Positions 112 to 8,862 of a DNA stretch of 13,075 nucleotides are shown here, piece after piece. The stretch lies in contig JACQWU010000157.1 in the NCBI GenBank assembly GCA_016209155.1, positions 1 through 13,075 on the forward strand, written 5' to 3'. Origin of the DNA: Candidatus Desantisiibacteriota bacterium (GTDB lineage Bacteria > JACRDZ01). Under the pieces are notes generated by a model, which saw only the letters and a program-made list of their open reading frames with translations, made no database searches and had not been told where the DNA came from. Position numbers and translations under genes: made by a program. The number at the start of each line of letters is the position of its first letter. Position 1 is the first letter of the stretch.

Positions 112-219
112 ATGACTCGTAATGAAGTAATAGAACACTTAAAAAAATTCAAAGAAGAAAACAAAGATAAATATCACCATTCCAAAATATTTAAGGATAA
201 CTTATGGACTGGGCAATAA
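112..219 (+). CDS. 35-aa ORF coupled to the large target gene; possible nucleotidyltransferase N-terminus remnant or leader peptide
   Basis: The ATG at 112 follows a strong purine-rich Shine-Dalgarno (AGGAGAAGGAGGT, 88-100). The frame runs 35 codons to TAA at 217-219 and overlaps the ATG of the large gene (204) by 16 bases, so the two are probably translationally coupled. The first ~20 residues (MTRNEVIEHLKKFKEENKDK) resemble the N-terminal helix of small MNT-type nucleotidyltransferases, which usually continue KYG.xx.GLFGS. Here that continuation is lost (KYHHSKIF), so this could be a truncated antitoxin-like gene whose start was captured in front of the target gene. It could equally be a short leader peptide. 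The resemblance is recalled, not searched; the ORF and its ribosome binding site are seen directly. Confidence 0.4.
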   Translation: MTRNEVIEHLKKFKEENKDKYHHSKIFKDNLWTGQ

Positions 220-3200
220 TAAATAAAATTCAAATTAAATTACAAGAACATAAAGATTCTCGTGTAAAAGAACTTCCACAGGGGGATATTAATGTTTTAG
301 TTATGAGCAACCTTTTAGCCCCGCATATTAATGCCAGTGAATTTGATATTCGGTTCATTGCTTCGGGTGCTTCCGGTGCCGGAGTTCTTTTAATAGTCAC
401 CGATGAAAAAGTTCCAATTATTATCAAATATGGGAAAAAAGAAATTGTTGATAGGGAAAAAGAAAATTATACTCTGAAAGTAAAAGAGTTTATTCAATCT
501 GAAATTATCCCAACCTTGAAAGATAGCTACATGACACTTGGTGAATATGCATCCATAGCATATATCTGGGGCGGCGGGTGGAATGAAGCCGGGAAATTTC
601 GTGATTACTTTAAGCATGAGGAATCCAGCAAAAAAATAAATGAACAAATCAGTTCTTTAATGGACGGGCTTTTTAAATGGTACAGACTTAAAAGAGGAAC
701 AATGATTCCTATTGACCAGTGGCAATGGAATCCCTCCAATGCTCTTGTCTCTGTTGAAAACAAAATCAAAGCCTGGGACAGCAATGATGGTGCTAAGAAA
801 AATTTAATTGCAGCAATTAGAAATCAGGAAAAATGGAGAAACGCAATAAGGATTGCAAACTTCAGCCAGGGTTTTTGTCATGGTGATTTGAACTGTAATA
901 ATATTATAATTTCTCAGAATAGTATTCCATTTCCAAAAATAATTGATTTTGCAAGTGTACGTGAAGGAATTACCCCTGCCAAGGACTGGGCAAAGTTTGA
1001 AAGGGAAATTAAATTCAGGTTTCTGCGGGATATCACATTGGATTCAACTGCATTTAGAAAAATGGTTAAACGAGTTGACGAAGTCTGTAATTCATTGAAT
1101 ACAACTGATGTTGATAACTCTATAAAAAAGCCATGCTATTTAATAACTTTTATAAGAAAAAAGTATTCGGAAAAAGTCAGTTCATTTTCTGATGCCCCAT
1201 ATCTTGAATATCTCTTTTATCTTTTCTATATAACACTATCATATATTATCCACCCGGAAATAAAAGATGATCTGGAAATACAAAACACAGTAATTGATTC
1301 TGCATACAGGACATTAGAAGAGATTGAAAAGTTATTCCCATACAAATATAAAAATTATACTTATCCCGGAATTTTGATTACAGAAGAAGAACCTTCTCCT
1401 AAAACTTATAAAAAAGATATTATTGATTTGCCAATAAAATTAGAAATTCCTGATAGTTATCAAAAATGGGTGGTTGATCGTTGTGAGGAAATCAATATAG
1501 AAAAATTAGTGGAAAGCAAAGACAGCGAAATTCTTTTAAGTGTAAAAATGCCGCAGATTTTTGTTCCTTTATATACCAATTCACTGGAAAACAAAACCAA
1601 TGAAGAAAAAGAGATCGAGCGTCATGAAATAGAAAAAAAACAGGAGTTGGTTAATATTGAAAAATTATCGGCGGAGAATGAATATTTAGTTATAAAAGGG
1701 CAGGCGGGTTCAGGTAAGACCACTTTATTAAAACATCTGGCTTATACTATAGCTAAAAAAATAAATCCGGATGGATTAAATGATTACCTGCCAGTACTAA
1801 TATTTTTAAATGATTTAAAGAAGGTTTCCAATTTGTCTGATAATAACATTGCCGGTACACCAAAAGCTGAAGAATTATTAACCGGTTACTTTGAAAAAAA
1901 CTGTCCCTCTCTGACTCTGGATATAATAAAAAGATTTTGCCGTGAAGGTAAAGCTATTTTTATATTTGACGGGCTGGATGAAATTAATACGGAAATAAGA
2001 AAAATCGTAGTTACTTCTTTTTCTGATTTTAGAACAAATAATAATTATCCAAAAATAGTATTGGCAGGAAGGCCGCACGGTATAGACACAAATGATAATA
2101 ATGTCTTATGTAAATTCCCCAATAAGTGCATTGAGATTAATACTTTAAATAATGAACAGATTAAAGATTTTGTAAAAAAATGGTTTTTATACGATTCTAA
2201 ACTGCAAAAAGAAGGCAAAACACCTGAGGGGATGATGTGTGAAATTACAGCTCATGAACGAGTTAAGGAACTGGTTATCAATCCACTGATGCTGACTGCT
2301 GTTTGTATTTTGTATCATTATGACCGAAAACTTCCGGAGCAGCGTGTTGAGTTGTATGAAAGGTTTATAAGCAATCTGATTTTTAAGAGATTTGATAATC
2401 CGCTAAAAATAGTAGAATTTTTAATGAGACTGGCTTTCAAAGTTCATACTGAAAAAACGAAAGAAGGAAGAGAGAGAGAAAGAAAATTTGATAACGCATT
2501 AGCCATCAAAGTAATGGAAGAAGTTTATCAGAAAGAAAAAGATGAAACCGATGTTGCATACAGGCAGAGGCTTGAGAGGCAATTTAAGAATATTGAACAA
2601 AATTGCGGACTGCTTGAAGTCAGCAATGATAAACAGTACAGGTTCTGGCATTTAAGTTTTCAGGAGTTTTTAAGTGCAAGGGATATTCAATCCCGGAATA
2701 TGAATTATGACAGGGCAATTGAAGAGTACTGGGATGATGACTGGTATGATGAAGTCATTAAGCTGCTTATAGGATATCTGGCTTTTAGCAGTAACAAGAA
2801 ATGGGCAAATACTATTGTTGAAAGCGAATTAAAAAATAAAGAAAATAATGTTTTCCCATTCAGGCGGATGTTGTTAGCCGCAGATGCGCTTAATGATATT
2901 CATAAAGATATGAGAGATAATAAGGTGCTTAAACTTGCTCAGGATTGTTTAAAGGATATTTGGGGAAAAGGGAATGATCCGAAAATATGGGTAAATGCGG
3001 GTGAAACCCTGGGCTGGTTGGGGGATACCAGAAACCTTAAAGAATTTATTCCTATTGAAGGTGGTGAATATAACTTTAAAGATTTGGGTGTTAAAAATAT
3101 AAAACCATTTGAAATAAGCAAATATCCGGTAACCAATCAATGGTTTGAAAAATTTATTAAAGCAAATGGATATGAAAATATGAATTATTGGAGTGAAGAA

Positions 3201-3695
3201 GGTAAAAAGTGGCTGAATCAACTAAAAGCCAAATACCCTCTATATTGGCACGAACGAAAATGGAAATGCCCAAATGCTCCAGTGGTTGGAGTATGCTGGT
3301 ATGAAGCGAATGCTTTCTGCCGATGGTTAAAACAAGGTTATAGATTGCCCACTGAACAAGAATGGCAAGCAACTGCCGCTGGGCTAAAAAACAGAATATA
3401 TCCATGGGGAAATGAGTTGCAAGATAATAGCTGTAATACTTATGAAACTAAAATTGGAAGAATTTCACCTGTGGGAATTTTTGCTAAAGGTTGCACTCCT
3501 CTTGGTGTAGCTGATATGGCTGGTAATGTGTGGGAATGGACTGACAGTTGGTTTGATGAAAGTAAAAATAGCAAGGTGCTTCGCGGGGGTTCATGGAACC
3601 TCAATCAGGAGCTCGCCCGATGCGCTAACCGTTACAGGAGCAATCCGGTGAACCGTGACAACAATCTCGGTTTTCGTTGTGCCAGGACTTTGTAG
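204..3695 (+). CDS. DGR target protein 1: kinase-like + NACHT NTPase + FGE-sulfatase/C-type-lectin-fold variable domain
   Basis: This 1163-residue protein has three recognisable parts. Residues ~50-260 look like an aminoglycoside-phosphotransferase/kinase-like fold: glycine-rich GASGAG (55-60), a candidate ATP-binding lysine K75, HGDLNCNN (226-233, catalytic-loop pattern) and IIDF (246-249, metal-binding Asp D248). Residues ~490-830 are a NACHT-type STAND NTPase: Walker A GQAGSGKTT (499-507), Walker B ending DGLDE (589-593) and the conserved WHLSFQEF (815-822). A short helical linker follows. Residues ~948-1163 are an FGE-sulfatase-like domain with RLPTEQEW (from 1047), GNVWEWTDSW (from 1107), LRGGSW (1126-1131) and C-terminal GFRCARTL. 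The last ~38 codons are VR1. The start is supported by AAGGA at 193-197, six bases before the ATG. By analogy to STAND proteins, ligand binding by the variable domain would drive NTP-dependent switching and an output by the kinase-like part; this is inference. The protein is intracellular, with no signal peptide or clear membrane segment. Confidence 0.88.
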   Translation: MDWAIINKIQIKLQEHKDSRVKELPQGDINVLVMSNLLAPHINASEFDIRFIASGASGAGVLLIVTDEKVPIIIKYGKKEIVDREKENYTLKVKEFIQSEIIPTLKDSYMTLGEYASIAYIWGGGWNEAGKFRDYFKHEESSKKINEQISSLMDGLFKWYRLKRGTMIPIDQWQWNPSNALVSVENKIKAWDSNDGAKKNLIAAIRNQEKWRNAIRIANFSQGFCHGDLNCNNIIISQNSIPFPKIIDFASVREGITPAKDWAKFEREIKFRFLRDITLDSTAFRKMVKRVDEVCNSLNTTDVDNSIKKPCYLITFIRKKYSEKVSSFSDAPYLEYLFYLFYITLSYIIHPEIKDDLEIQNTVIDSAYRTLEEIEKLFPYKYKNYTYPGILITEEEPSPKTYKKDIIDLPIKLEIPDSYQKWVVDRCEEINIEKLVESKDSEILLSVKMPQIFVPLYTNSLENKTNEEKEIERHEIEKKQELVNIEKLSAENEYLVIKGQAGSGKTTLLKHLAYTIAKKINPDGLNDYLPVLIFLNDLKKVSNLSDNNIAGTPKAEELLTGYFEKNCPSLTLDIIKRFCREGKAIFIFDGLDEINTEIRKIVVTSFSDFRTNNNYPKIVLAGRPHGIDTNDNNVLCKFPNKCIEINTLNNEQIKDFVKKWFLYDSKLQKEGKTPEGMMCEITAHERVKELVINPLMLTAVCILYHYDRKLPEQRVELYERFISNLIFKRFDNPLKIVEFLMRLAFKVHTEKTKEGRERERKFDNALAIKVMEEVYQKEKDETDVAYRQRLERQFKNIEQNCGLLEVSNDKQYRFWHLSFQEFLSARDIQSRNMNYDRAIEEYWDDDWYDEVIKLLIGYLAFSSNKKWANTIVESELKNKENNVFPFRRMLLAADALNDIHKDMRDNKVLKLAQDCLKDIWGKGNDPKIWVNAGETLGWLGDTRNLKEFIPIEGGEYNFKDLGVKNIKPFEISKYPVTNQWFEKFIKANGYENMNYWSEEGKKWLNQLKAKYPLYWHERKWKCPNAPVVGVCWYEANAFCRWLKQGYRLPTEQEWQATAAGLKNRIYPWGNELQDNSCNTYETKIGRISPVGIFAKGCTPLGVADMAGNVWEWTDSWFDESKNSKVLRGGSWNLNQELARCANRYRSNPVNRDNNLGFRCARTL
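3574..3689 (+). repeat. DGR variable repeat VR1 (3' end of target 1)
   Basis: This 116-base copy of the template repeat (5159-5274) encodes residues ~1125-1162 of target 1. Aligned codon by codon, it differs from TR at nine positions between 3592 and 3670, all adenines in TR: AAC>CTC twice, AAC>TAC, AAC>AGC, GAG>GTG, AAC>GAC and ATC>CTC. The tenth difference, T>G at 3686, lies at the 3' edge, beyond the initiation (IMH-like) stretch TCGGTTTTCGTTGTGCCAG. Cysteine, glycine, arginine and tryptophan codons that form the fold lack changed adenines and are intact. Confidence 0.93.
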
Positions 3696-3749
3696 CTCTT
3701 TGCACTTTTACGCTTTTACCCTTTACCGCCGTTAGGCGGTCGAAATTTT
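3690..3749 (+). promoter_or_regulatory. Post-VR1 target-recognition segment with hairpin (stem 3725-3730/3735-3740)
   Basis: The 60 bases after VR1 match those after VR2 (7296-7355) at 55 positions. Inside is a hairpin with arms ACCGCC (3725-3730) and GGCGGT (3735-3740) around a four-base GTTA loop. DGR targets studied experimentally need a hairpin/cruciform just downstream of the VR for efficient retrohoming, and this fits that role. It is followed by a T-run (AAATTTT), so it may also work as a weak transcription terminator. Confidence 0.65.
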
Positions 3750-3766
3750 AAAAATTAGGAGATACA

Positions 3767-4114
3767 TTGCCTAAAGAAGTTGATGCTATTACAAAACTTT
3801 ATGATTTTATTCTTTGGATAATCCCGAAGCTGGAAAAATTTCCACGCAGTCAGAAATTTTTACTGGCGGACAGAATTGAAAATTTTTTACTCGATATTCT
3901 TGAACTTTTGATTGAAGCGTCTTATTCCAAAAATAAATCCAATCAACTCAAAAATGCAAATTTGAAACTTGAACAACTGCGTTATTTAATAAGATTATCC
4001 AAGGACCTTAAATTACTTGATTTAAAAAGTTATGAATTTTCTGCTCAGACAATTAATAATATTGGCATTTCTATTGGAGGTTGGTTAAAATATACAAATC
4101 ATGAAAACATATAA
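3767..4114 (+). CDS. avd: DGR accessory variability determinant (Avd-like four-helix-bundle protein)
   Basis: This 115-residue, lysine/leucine-rich, predicted all-helical protein matches the Avd/four-helix-bundle family as I know it: KFPRSQKF near residue 25, then DRI, LLDILELLIEA, LKLEQLRYLIRL.KDLKLL and a C-terminal IGGWLK. Avd proteins form pentameric barrels that bind the DGR reverse transcriptase and TR RNA and are needed for cDNA synthesis. The start is TTG at 3767, supported by AGGAG (3757-3761) five bases upstream; no ATG competes with it. The gene lies 71 bases after target 1 and overlaps the RT start by 14 bases, so the two are translationally coupled. Its length is close to the family norm (~110-130 residues). 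Confidence 0.9.
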   Translation: MPKEVDAITKLYDFILWIIPKLEKFPRSQKFLLADRIENFLLDILELLIEASYSKNKSNQLKNANLKLEQLRYLIRLSKDLKLLDLKSYEFSAQTINNIGISIGGWLKYTNHENI

Positions 4115-5213
4115 CAATCTATTTGATAAAATAATTTCATTTTCTAACCTTCTTCTCGCTTCCCAAAAAACGCAAAAAGGCAAGCGTTTTAAAGATGGAA
4201 TTGCTTTGTTTAATTTGAATCTGGAAAAGGAATTGATTAAACTGCAAAAAGAATTACAGGAAATGACTTATCATCATGGTGAATACCGTGATTTTTTTGT
4301 TTACGATCCAAAAAGACGGTTAATCAGCGCTGCTCCATACCGGGATCGAGTGGTTCATCATGCTCTTTGTAATATTATTGAACCAATTTTTAATAAAGCA
4401 TTTATTTATGATTCATATGCTAACCGGAAGGAAAAAGGTACTCATGCCGCAATTAATAGATATACTGAATTTGCCGGAAAAAATAAATATGTTTTGCAAT
4501 GTGATATACAAAAATATTTTCAAAGCGTTAACCATGAAATACTTCTGGAGATTATTTCAAAAAAGATTACATGCGTAAAAACACTCTGGCTTATTAGAGA
4601 AATCATCAATACACGATGCGATGAAAATTATTTCTTTTACTTTGAAAATGACGACCTTTTCAGCCCGTTTGAAAAAAAGAAAGGAATTCCTATAGGTAAT
4701 TTAACAAGCCAATTTTTTGCCAATGTTTATCTAAATGGTTTTGATCATTTCATAAAAGAAACGATTAAATGTCCATACATTCGCTATGTCGATGATTTTG
4801 TTGTATTCGGCAATGATAAAGAACAATTGCATGAAGTAAAAAATCAAATGGATATTTATCTTGCTTCATTACGTTTAAAACTTCACGAGAGAAAATGCAG
4901 AATATATCAAATCAAAGATGGACTTAACTTTCTTGGTTATAGAATATTTCCTGAGTATCGATTACTTAAGAAAGATAATATATTACGAATGAAAAGAAAG
5001 CTTAAAAAATTAAGCCATCAATATAAACATGGCTCAATTTCTCTTGATAAAATTCATCAAAGTATTCAAAGTTGGATAGGCCATGCTTCCCATGCCGATA
5101 CTTACAATTTAAGATCAAAGCTATTGGGAAGTGTAGCTTTTCAAAGGGGTGCGACCAGAGGTGCTTCGCGGGGGTTCATGGAACAACAATCAGGAGAACG
5201 CCCGATGCGCTAA
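4101..5213 (+). CDS. DGR-type reverse transcriptase
   Basis: This 370-residue retroelement RT shows catalytic Asp 135 in LQCDIQKYF, the motif [14 protein letters not shown] (195 onward) and the catalytic YVDD box (Y229-D232). The I/LGxxxSQ form of motif 4 (here IGNLTSQ, 198-204) is characteristic of DGR RTs, whereas most retroviral and group II RTs carry a QG form. These enzymes copy TR RNA with high misincorporation opposite adenine. ATG 4101 sits inside the end of avd. There is no maturase or endonuclease domain, which fits a DGR and not a group II intron. The last 18 codons (353-370) lie inside the template repeat, and the stop TAA (5211-5213) uses two adenines of a TR AAC codon, so the conserved enzyme probably ends near residue 350 and the tail is TR-derived. 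Confidence 0.93.
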
Positions 5214-5274
5214 CCGTAACAGGAACAATCCGGAGAACCGTAACAACAATATCGGTTTTCGTTGTGCCAGTACT
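5159..5274 (+). repeat. DGR template repeat (TR)
   Basis: This 116-base repeat has the same orientation as the RT and both targets. Read in the VR frame it is dense in AAC/AAT codons: from 5182 to 5253 it holds 30 adenines, 19 of which are changed in at least one VR. Both VRs differ from this copy only at its adenines, which marks it as the template. The 3' part TCGGTTTTCGTTGTGCCAG (5252-5270) is unchanged in all three copies and is the likely IMH/IMH* region. At 5271 TR has T where both VRs have G, which marks the end of transferred sequence. Confidence 0.94.
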
Positions 5275-5436
5275 AAAAAAGTTTGTTTTTGCCGGAGCCT
5301 TATCTTTTAAGAAAAGATAGGGGTGTGCATTTACTTAAGTCCAGGTCGCAATCCTGTGTTGGCTTATTTTAGCCAACCAAAATAAAAATAGCTCTATCCG
5401 GGGTTAGTAGGGAGACTGAAAACTCCGGGAGAGTAT
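5275..5436 (+). ncRNA. Structured non-coding stretch after TR, likely 3' part of the DGR template RNA
   Basis: No credible gene lies between TR and the second target. Three stem-loops can be drawn: CCTTATCTTTT (5298-5308) with AAAAGATAGGG (5312-5322), 11 bp including one G-T pair; GTTGGCT (5358-5364) with AGCCAAC (5371-5377); and CCGGGGTT (5398-5405) with AACTCCGG (5421-5428), one G-T pair. In the studied Bordetella phage DGR, a structured spacer 3' of TR binds RT-Avd and primes cDNA synthesis. This stretch sits where that element would be. It is drawn by eye and no folding energy was computed. Confidence 0.4.
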
Positions 5437-5448
5437 AAAGGAGAAAAA

Positions 5449-7301
5449 TTGGGAAAATTTAAAATTAAAATTTTAAGTGATAATCCGGAAGAAATAAAAG
5501 AAAACATTAAGTTTGATTTTCATGCTTATAAAAAAACATTTGTTGATATCATATCCTCAAATGATAATGAAACTCCGCTTGTAATAGGGCTTGAAGGCAG
5601 ATGGGGGAGAGGTAAAACCACATAGATATAAAAAAATTATGGGATAAACTTAATCTTAAGGCAATACCTGAATTTTTAGTAGACTATATTCCTTTTTTAA
5701 AAGGTTTTTCAAATATAATAAAAGAAGAAGATTATAAAAAAAACCTGCCGTATTTTAACCTTTTCAGCACATTTTTAAAACAATTAATCAGGCTTTGGAT
5801 TCATTGTGAAGATTCATTTAAAATAACTGATGGAGAAAGCATTGGGGTTGGAGAAATAGATGATAAAAAAGGTGTTGTGGTAATTTTTATTGACGACCTT
5901 GACAGGTGTAATAAAGAAAATATTGTAAAAGTTCTAGAAGCTGTGAAACTTTTTCTTGATTTTAGAGGATGTATTTTCGTAATGGGGGTTTCTATAGAAA
6001 TTATAGTAAAGGCTACTTCTTCTGTGGCTCATTGTGAAGATGGAAGTGAATACCTTGAAAAGATGATTCAGGTATCATACGGACTTCCACCAATTCACCA
6101 GGATGATATGAAAATTTATTTCGAAGAAAAAATTTCCCTATTTTCCTATAATGATATCTTAAATAAATACTCAGACGTAATTATAAAATCATTTGGAGAT
6201 AGGATTACTCCAAGAAAAATTAAGCAGTTCATTAATAATCTAAACCTGCAAATTAAGATATCAGATAATAAGGGTTTATTTGAAAAAGATTTTTATGATG
6301 AAAATAATAATAAAATAATTTTAAAAATTGATCATTATATATACTGGAATATTCTGAAAGAAGCATTTAGAATAAATTTTGATAGTATTAAAGATAATAC
6401 AGATATTATAAAAATGACACAAACCGCATATAAAGAAAATGAAGCTCAAATAAAAAATAGTAATTTTGAAAATATTGATAAAATCCGATACGAAGTTGTT
6501 AAGGATATACTAAAAAATCAAATGTTACGGGAGATAGTTATAAATTTACCTGATAATGCTGAGATTATAAATATATTAAAATTTGAATCTTTAGCAGTTG
6601 GTCAAATACATATAGAAACAGAAGATATGAAGGGAATGCGTGAGCATTATCGTAGTGGGGCAATGGTAAAAATTGAAAAAGGTCCGTTTTTATATACAGA
6701 GGAAAAAATTAAAGAAAAAATAGATTACGATTATGAAATAGATATATTCCCTGTTACAATTGAAGAATATTGCAAATTTATAGATATTAAGAAGCCGGAT
6801 AAAAAGGAATTAGATAATTGGATTTCTTTAGAAGGTAGGATTAAAGAGAAAGATGGAAAATATATTGTGGAAAAATGTTACGAGAAACATCCTATTATTT
6901 ATGTATCATGGTATGGTGCTAAGGAATATGCAAAATGGATGAAAAAAAGACTGCCCGAAGAAAAAGAATGGGAGAAAGCGGCAAGGGGACCAAATGGTTG
7001 GATATATCCATGGGGTGATGAGTTTGATAAAGGAAAATGCAATACCTCTGAATCCAATAATAATGATACAACTGAGGTAGACAAATATCCGAATGGAAAA
7101 AGTTATTATGGATGCTATGATATGGCAGGTAATGTCTGGGAGTGGACGGACAGTTGGTATGATAAAAATATGGATAGCAAGGTGCTTCGCGGGGGTTCAT
7201 GGTACTACGATCAGGAGTACGCCCGATGCGCTGACCGTGACAGGTACCTTCCGGAGTACCGTAACCTCGATATCGGTTTTCGTTGTGCCAGGACTTTGTA
7301 G
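5449..7301 (+). pseudogene. DGR target 2: KAP-type P-loop NTPase + FGE-like variable domain, disrupted between Walker A and B
   Basis: The N-terminal piece starts at TTG 5449, five bases after AAAGGAG (5437-5443). It encodes 58 residues typical of KAP NTPases: FHAYKKTF.DII, then Walker A GRWGRGKTT (50-58). It then hits TAG at 5623-5625. The next frame is open from 5616 to 7301 and carries FIDDLDRC (Walker B, ~5886-5909), VKLFLDFRGCIFVMGV, YLEKMIQ and ITPRKIKQFINNL, all KAP-like. From ~6657 follows an FGE-like domain (RLPEEKEW, GNVWEWTDSW, LRGGSW, GFRCARTL) ending in VR2. Walker A and B are only ~90 codons apart, and the WFNAW(R/K)Y segment expected after Walker A is missing, so an internal deletion with frameshift is likelier than a one-base error. 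A separate product could begin only at GTG 5877, without Walker A. An assembly error is possible. Confidence 0.8.
7180..7295 (+). repeat. DGR variable repeat VR2 (3' end of target 2)
   Basis: This 116-base copy of TR lies in the same frame relative to the FGE-like domain as VR1. It differs from TR at 13 positions between 7203 and 7271, all adenines in TR: five AAC>TAC, two AAC>GAC, two AAT>GAT, AAT>CTT and AAC>CTC. It also shares with VR1 the G (7292) that replaces the TR T at 5271. No stop codon is created and all non-adenine positions are intact, although the gene is broken upstream. Confidence 0.94.
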
Positions 7302-7355
7302 CTCTTTGCACTTTTATTCTTTTACCCTTTACCGCCGTAAGGCGGTAAAAATTTT
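7296..7355 (+). promoter_or_regulatory. Post-VR2 target-recognition segment with hairpin (stem 7328-7336/7341-7349)
   Basis: This is the second copy of the 60-base segment found after VR1, with five differences. The hairpin is longer here: TTTACCGCC (7328-7336) pairs perfectly with GGCGGTAAA (7341-7349) around GTAA. The loop has four bases in both copies but differs at one base (GTTA versus GTAA). This conservation outside any reading frame supports a role in DGR target recognition. A terminator role at the end of the locus is also possible. Confidence 0.65.
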
Positions 7356-7419: not shown

Positions 7420-7448
7420 TTGCCAATGAAGCGATAATAATATATAAT
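7420..7448 (+). promoter_or_regulatory. Sigma-70-type promoter of the Fic gene
   Basis: TTGCCA (7420-7425) and a perfect TATAAT (7443-7448) are separated by 17 bases. The predicted start of transcription is near 7455, leaving a short leader before ATG 7490. The direct repeat TGAAGCGAT occurs at 7427-7435 (inside the spacer) and 7461-7469 (just after the start site), 34 bases apart, and could be a regulator site. Confidence 0.6.
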
Positions 7449-7489
7449 TGCATCAATATTTGAAGCGATTAAATAGGGTGAAAAATATT

Positions 7490-8443
7490 ATGACAAAATA
7501 TATATGGCAGAAAAAGGATTGGTATGATTTTAATTATGATCATAAAGCATTGATTGAATTACTTGCAAAAGCACGTCTTATGCAGGGAAATATGCTCGGG
7601 AAAATGTCATTGCTTGATATAAACCAGGAGATAGAAGCTCAGGCTGAAGTTCTTATTGAGGAAGCAGTAAGAACAGCAGAGATAGAAGGTATGTCATTAA
7701 ACAGAGATGCAGTAAGATCATCGGTAGCTATGCGTTTAGGGCTTCCGCATGGGGTAAACATAAAAGATAGAAATGCGGATGGACTTGTTGAGGTTTTGCT
7801 TGATGCAATACATTTTAATGAAAAACCACTTACGCAGGAAAGATTAAACGCCTGGCAGGCAGCGCTTTTCCCGACAGGATATTCAGGTCTAAAGAAAATA
7901 CGTACCGGAGAATTGCGGGGTCATGATCCAATGCGTGTAATATCAGGACCTATAGGTAAAGAAAAAATGCATTTTGAAGCACCGCCTGCGCAGCAGATTA
8001 AAAAAGAATTAAGCCATTTTATAAATTGGTGGAATGATTCATCGGATAAAATGGACGGTATGTTACGGGCTGCTGCCGCGCATCTGCGATTTATAACAAT
8101 ACACCCTTATGAGGATGGAAATGGAAGAATAGCGCGCGCACTGACAGATATGGCTCTTTCACAGGATTAAAAAATAAAAGTAAGATTTTATAGTGTTTCT
8201 TCACAAATCATGAAAAATCGGGAGGATTATTACAATATTCTTGAAAATATCCAGAACTGTCGTCTTGATGTCACTGAATGGTTTGTATGGTTTATAAAAT
8301 GTGTTATATCCGCGATAGAACATTCGCAAAATATTATTGCAAATGTGTTCAAAAAAGCTGAATTCTGGAAAAAACATGCACAAACACAATTAAATGAAAG
8401 ACAGAGAAAAGTGATAGCTAAACTTCTTGAAGCAGGTCCCTAA
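7490..8443 (+). pseudogene. Fic-family protein (DUF4172-Fic type), interrupted by an in-frame stop and truncated
   Basis: The preferred start is ATG 7490 (MTKYIWQKKDW, the typical beginning of DUF4172), not TTG 7448, which overlaps the -10 box. The inhibitory-helix motif TAEIEG (62-67, (S/T)xxxE(G/N)) and the catalytic loop HPYEDGNGRIAR (205-216) are complete, so the ancestor was an AMP-transferase-type Fic enzyme with built-in autoinhibition. TAA at 8168-8170 stops it after codon 226. The same frame then reads KIKVRFYSVSSQI and onward to LNERQRKV..LLEAGP before TAA at 8441. Relatives as I recall them have D-E-K at the stop, so a single GAA>TAA change explains it. Full-length relatives run to ~370 residues with a C-terminal winged helix, which is missing here. 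A 226-residue truncated product could still be made. Confidence 0.8.
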
Positions 8444-8862
8444 AGCAAAATCAACTTCTTTGCTGTCTTTTGTGCGCATATAGTGTAAGGATATATTCAT
8501 CCCTTTAGCATCATGCAAATATTGGATATGTTTAAGCAGGCTTACTGCAACAGTAAGGGCGAACCTACTCGTTTACGAAGCATTTCCAGTAAAAGACGGA
8601 TTGCCCTGATTTCACTTATACGACTAAAATCCATTACATCTTTACGCACAATATCCGTATAATATTGCTGGCGCCAGCGCTCGGCATACTCATCAGATAA
8701 GGAAAGAAATGGTTCAGGAAAACCGCCTAATCTATTTAATGCAGAAACTGCTTCGTAAGGTGGCAAGAGACCGGATAATTCCTTTACCGAAAGCGGATTT
8801 AAATGGAAAAGAAAATATCTGCCTGCAAGGGAATCTCCTGTTTGCCGAAAAGTATCCAATTA
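8441..8862 (-). pseudogene. Remnant of an AAA_14/DUF4143 ATPase, internally deleted
   Basis: On the minus strand, 8859-8545 reads LDTFRQTGDSLAGRYF, then LNPLSVKELSG, LGGFPEPF, WRQQYYTDIVRKDV and LLEMLRKRVGSP. This is the middle of the AAA_14/DUF4143 ATPase family, just after the usual GSAR motif. A stop codon (8860-8862) lies immediately upstream, and the Walker A half is absent. After RVGSP the frame shifts and the family's C-terminal part appears: VAVSLLKHIQYLHD, then LHYMRTKDSKEVDFAL, ending at 8441. About 100 residues normally lie between these pieces, so there has been an internal deletion with frameshift. The remnant abuts the broken Fic end exactly (8440/8441), suggesting one rearrangement joined the two. 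Not functional. Confidence 0.75.

Follow-up and report, generated by a model that had tools for sequence, protein, structure and literature searches.

The stretch of DNA analysed here (13,075 nucleotides, hereafter the window) carries what is, judged from its sequence, a genuine and complete DGR, in which one TR and two VRs accompany a NACHT-FGE target and a KAP-FGE target, the latter with an NTPase that is broken as assembled. It is likely a chromosomal element and one of the cellular DGRs with NTPase sensors, with the whole cycle and the sensor roles proposed below. More tentatively, and with considerable doubt, we propose that the rare DGR lineage to which it belongs, present in at least five phyla, represents a two-slot cassette whose single template co-diversifies NACHT and KAP sensors with exchangeable effectors and, jointly, that VR retrohoming in the wider group needs a polypyrimidine tract beside the hairpin, a tract unseen after the VR of BPP-1.

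As outlined in Table 1, bAvd, RT, TR, two VRs and two hairpins were all located, and target 1, bAvd, RT, TR, target 2 and both VRs share the + strand, in agreement with the original prediction of a complete DGR in one orientation. RTs of the DGR lineage combine the motifs [IVL]GxxxSQ and YxDD, and the window RT contains both. In the RT tree of the loci examined it groups with DGR RTs and apart from non-DGR RTs, as had been expected, and its neighbours are RTs of loci with A-biased TR/VR pairs. No relatives of the window RT were found in the viral contigs searched.

Table 1 Features of the DGR and their positions in the window.
Feature	Position	Strand	Evidence and remarks
Target 1: kinase-like (TCAD9/APH, aa 1-~390) - NACHT (aa 494-661) - FGE/C-type-lectin (aa 964-1161)	204..3695	+	Pfam and motifs
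VR1	3574..3689	+	91% identical to TR; 9/10 mismatches at TR A
Polypyrimidine tract after VR1 (CTTTGCACTTTTACGCTTTTACCCTTT)	3696..3724	+	
Hairpin ACCGCC-GTTA-GGCGGT after VR1	3725..3740	+	
bAvd accessory protein	3767..4114	+	PF22296 1.1e-20; TTG start
DGR-type reverse transcriptase (RT)	4101..5213	+	PF00078 9.5e-29; IGNLTSQ, YVDD; 3' end of ORF overlaps TR
TR	5159..5274	+	34 adenines; 12 AAC/AAT codons in VR frame
Structured TR-spacer RNA, resembles Rfam RT-14	5291..5435	+	Rfam RF02921 and model R1
Target 2, N-terminal piece: KAP from its start through Walker A, ending at TAG	5449..5625	+	PF07693 positions 2-35
Target 2, remainder in other frame: KAP from before Walker B, FGE	5622..7301	+	PF07693 positions 145-287, PF03781
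VR2	7180..7295	+	13/14 mismatches vs TR at TR A
Polypyrimidine tract after VR2	7302..7327	+	
Hairpin TTTACCGCC-GTAA-GGCGGTAAA after VR2	7328..7349	+	

In both VRs nearly all differences from the TR sit at TR adenines (binomial p 1.2e-4 for VR1 and 1.2e-6 for VR2). The only non-A change, T to G, occupies the identical 3' position in VR1 and VR2, which fits slightly differing, IMH-like homing sites (IMH and IMH*); apart from this common base, the confinement of the differences to adenines was borne out within the window assembly. The 22 A changes fall on codon position 1 (16 changes) and position 2 (6), with none at position 3, and the variable codons are mostly AAC or AAT. Since 12 codons of the TR are AAC or AAT, A changes in them never give stops. 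Further copies of the VR1 region were not found in the host genome, which is 79% complete.

Target 1 is intact, and as a NACHT-FGE protein carrying VR1 at its C-terminus it places the element among the STAND/KAP NTPase-FGE-DGR systems. Its translation contains the motifs HGDL...N, IDF, GQAGSGKTT and IFDGLDE. Pfam TCAD9 scored above the cut-off, and the N-terminus searched alone gave a weak APH match below it as well; with the readable HGDL...N and IDF motifs, these matches make a kinase-like effector likely, consistent with the kinase reading of the original prediction. A single-sequence fold of aa 1-400 reached a mean pLDDT of 36, too low for use. In a sequence search of solved structures the FGE domain matched FGE/EgtB-type chains, and the remainder of target 1 had no match. 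No separate effector gene was recognised adjoining target 1. A small ORF (82-219) overlaps its start and resembles, by eye, the start of a minimal nucleotidyltransferase.

The window RT belongs to a supported clade (99/89) of six loci (window, L110, L095, L028, L111 and L029), which spans at least five phyla: that of the window, Nitrospirota (L028), Thermodesulfobacteriota (L029; the L095 genome, too, was drawn from this phylum) and the phyla of the genomes G1103 and G1152. The comparison comprised four genomes of the window's phylum and three and eight, respectively, of the latter two; no close RTs were found in the three further genomes of the host's phylum, and class and phylum searches yielded no clade members past the six. 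All six carry a NACHT-FGE target, and four of them a KAP-FGE protein, which lies downstream of the TR in the window, L095 and L028 and upstream in L029. The order target, Avd, RT, TR and, where present, second target is kept in the related loci. The gene pair, sought in related genomes as had been suggested, thus recurs in three others, where the KAP domain is intact. The N-termini of the NACHT proteins vary: kinase-like in the window, calcineurin in L110 and L029, HD-CE in L095, methyltransferase in target 1 of L111, calcineurin again in its second target (a call based on 36% homology to L110) and without recognised domain in L028. Target 1 of the window and target 1 of L110 are 51% identical over aa 390-1161, with little similarity before and with differing N-termini (kinase-like versus calcineurin), which amounts to an effector exchange; the N-terminal effector end is exchangeable across the clade. 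Furthermore, a 1-nt indel relative to the TR puts one VR out of frame in L095 (VR1) and in L111 (VR2), and a new homing event could restore the frame in both.

The two NTPase targets with a common FGE-like C-terminus that had been described were recovered in part: the NACHT-FGE protein is intact, whereas the KAP-FGE protein is split into two frames and lacks about 70 residues. In the N-terminal piece of target 2 the Walker A motif (GLEGRWGRGKTT) reads into a TAG, and the distance from Walker A to the next common anchor is about 28 residues, versus about 97 in the KAP protein of L029. Compared with the three intact relatives, the residues absent between Walker A and Walker B include the tryptophan-rich motif VWF-x-x-W-x-Y, which all three (L028, L029 and L095) conserve. 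The KAP NTPase is hence broken in the window assembly as it reads, and an error of the MAG assembly is possible; a complete NTPase in target 2 is not needed for membership in the NTPase-FGE-DGR systems. A programmed frameshift was ruled out, as frame shifting cannot rebuild a domain from which about 70 residues are absent. For the claim that one TR serves two NTPase sensors, the recurrence of the pair in three other genomes speaks in favour and the broken KAP switch against. Next to target 2 lies a DUF4172-Fic gene (7448-8443) with an in-frame TAA near 8168 and a C-terminus that ends early; it is likely a pseudogene, and a frameshift was ruled out here as well, with both ORFs in one frame and the TAA between them. 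A 105-aa ORF on the - strand (8542-8859) has no Pfam match and looks by eye like a fragment of a larger ATPase-type protein.

The break in target 2 is probably recent, because VR2 matches the TR outside adenines save for the one common 3' base, or else it is an assembly error. We consider it rather unlikely that the break arose in assembly and that the organism itself has two intact targets: the host assembly is fragmented (352 contigs, 79% complete) and target 2 continues past the break for 559 codons without a stop, as such an error would allow, but the loss of about 70 codons plus a frame change is unlike a single-base slip, and the adjoining Fic gene has a stop, too. The same broken KAP and the stop in the Fic gene, together with the VR frameshifts in L095 and L111, could be taken to mean that the locus is a decaying relic with target 2 as a pseudogene, in which target 1 alone may still diversify. 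With RT, Avd and target 1 intact, and with VR2 differing from the TR at adenines and the common 3' base only, as after recent homing, we hold this to be unlikely.

Hairpins are found 3' of both VRs, and each is preceded by a polypyrimidine tract. The hairpin loops GTTA and GTAA do not match the GRNA loop of phage DGR hairpins (PMC3240598). As a measure of the tract we took the best 35-nt pyrimidine fraction downstream, whose mean is 0.80 for 51 VRs of the loci examined, 0.56 for 41 TRs and 0.59 for 472 other gene ends; a fraction of about 0.8 was reached by 71% of the VRs versus 2% of the other gene ends, the loci being related, so that p-values overstate independence. No such tract was seen after the 41 TRs. 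A short GC hairpin stands downstream of 53% of the VRs versus 16% of the other gene ends, and several close relatives have the tract after the VR without such a hairpin.

The TR is followed by a covarying structured RNA, which coincides in place with Rfam RT-14 (RF02921). This model matched window positions 5283-5434 with 37.9 bits, below the gathering threshold of 48.1, which the relative L073 passes with 51.9 bits; in L073 (10601-10754, - strand) the structured RNA after the TR coincides with RT-14. An RNA model built from six loci, R1, matched 36 of 45 loci, once each, and gave 124 bits on the window, which is within its training set. The model-fitted alignment, which leans to its own structure, contains 88% standard pairs and covaries strongly across the 36 loci, with a score of 0.69 versus 0.23 after shuffling. 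RT-14 was reportedly introduced by Weinberg in 2017. In a search that reached a minority of subscription papers, no publication was found to connect DGRs with a pyrimidine tract or with RT-14.

Earlier work already describes NTPase-FGE-DGR systems, loci with two targets and the replacement of STAND by KAP (PMC8195603, PMC10907252). In section 7 of Kaur 2021, STAND-FGS proteins with varied effectors, KAP replacing STAND and DGR linkage are reported, and single organisms are noted to have several NTPase-FGS copies whose NTPases differ (PMC8195603). The window shares with these systems the N-terminal effector or adaptor, the central NACHT/nSTAND/KAP NTPase, the C-terminal FGS (FGE) and the RT with a four-helix accessory protein; it differs in its NACHT-FGE target, to which a TCAD9/APH-like, kinase-like effector is fused, and in the placing of NACHT and KAP targets on either side of one TR, an exact pair unnamed in the text examined. 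Clade 5D DGRs of multicellular bacteria, as presented in Doré 2024, comprise two-target loci, e.g. DGR 3 and 6 of Thiohalocapsa PB-PSB1, with a single C-type-lectin domain per target and NACHT/nSTAND1 or, in some cases, KAP NTPases (PMC10907252). The window host is, in contrast, not known as multicellular and its locus mixes NACHT and KAP; the likeness is one of architecture, the window RT having been placed in our own tree of the loci examined. The Bordetella phage BPP-1 DGR is alike in Avd, RT, TR/VR, adenine mutagenesis and a hairpin after the VR. It differs in its phage tail target, in its RT, to which the window RT is 39% identical, and in what follows its VR, where the pyrimidine fraction over 35 nt peaks at 0.43 and a polypyrimidine tract is absent. 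The surmise that the exact pairing of kinase-NACHT-FGE and KAP-FGE is undescribed was upheld insofar as no other locus examined has it, while the general architecture is published in the two papers cited (section 7 of PMC8195603 and section 12 of PMC10907252). New, as far as the literature searched shows, are the combination of a kinase-like NACHT-FGE with KAP-FGE, the occurrence of the pairing and the exchange of effectors within a rare clade of several phyla, the polypyrimidine tract after VRs and the RT-14 link.

In the mechanism we propose, RT and bAvd would bind a transcript holding the TR and the structured spacer, adenines would be miscopied as the TR is reverse-transcribed, and VR1 or VR2 would be replaced by the cDNA. 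Replacement would stop at the common 3' sequence, helped by the hairpin and pyrimidine tract behind each VR, and every such event would give an NTPase protein a new binding surface on its C-type-lectin face. Target 1 would act in an NLR-like manner: the diversified lectin domain may bind something in the cell, possibly from an invader, NACHT would switch, and the kinase-like domain would serve as effector. Target 2 would formerly have been another such sensor, with KAP as its switch. A role of such DGR-diversified proteins in kin recognition or cell-cell discrimination, put forward for the same class as an alternative to phage defence in section 19 of Doré 2024 (PMC10907252), appears quite improbable to us; in neither target did Pfam recognise a part for secretion or for the cell surface, and nothing in the window tells kin recognition and phage defence apart.

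For the intracellular sensor reading, which we prefer, it matters that DGR-diversified NTPase proteins have been proposed as a bacterial counterpart of somatically diversified immune receptors, a proposal for which no experimental test was found in the literature examined. A clade that keeps its NTPase-lectin bodies and changes the effector end would provide natural module swaps for testing it, the tract after the VRs and the spacer RNA would be concrete, mutable cis elements, and the RT-14 link would connect DGR template RNA with an Rfam family whose name refers only to a neighbouring RT. Elsewhere in the host genome, contig C230 (L002/L116) encodes, from position 44 onward, the N-terminus of a second RT (45% identity over aa 7-128), which runs into an unrelated long ORF that is methyltransferase-like by eye.
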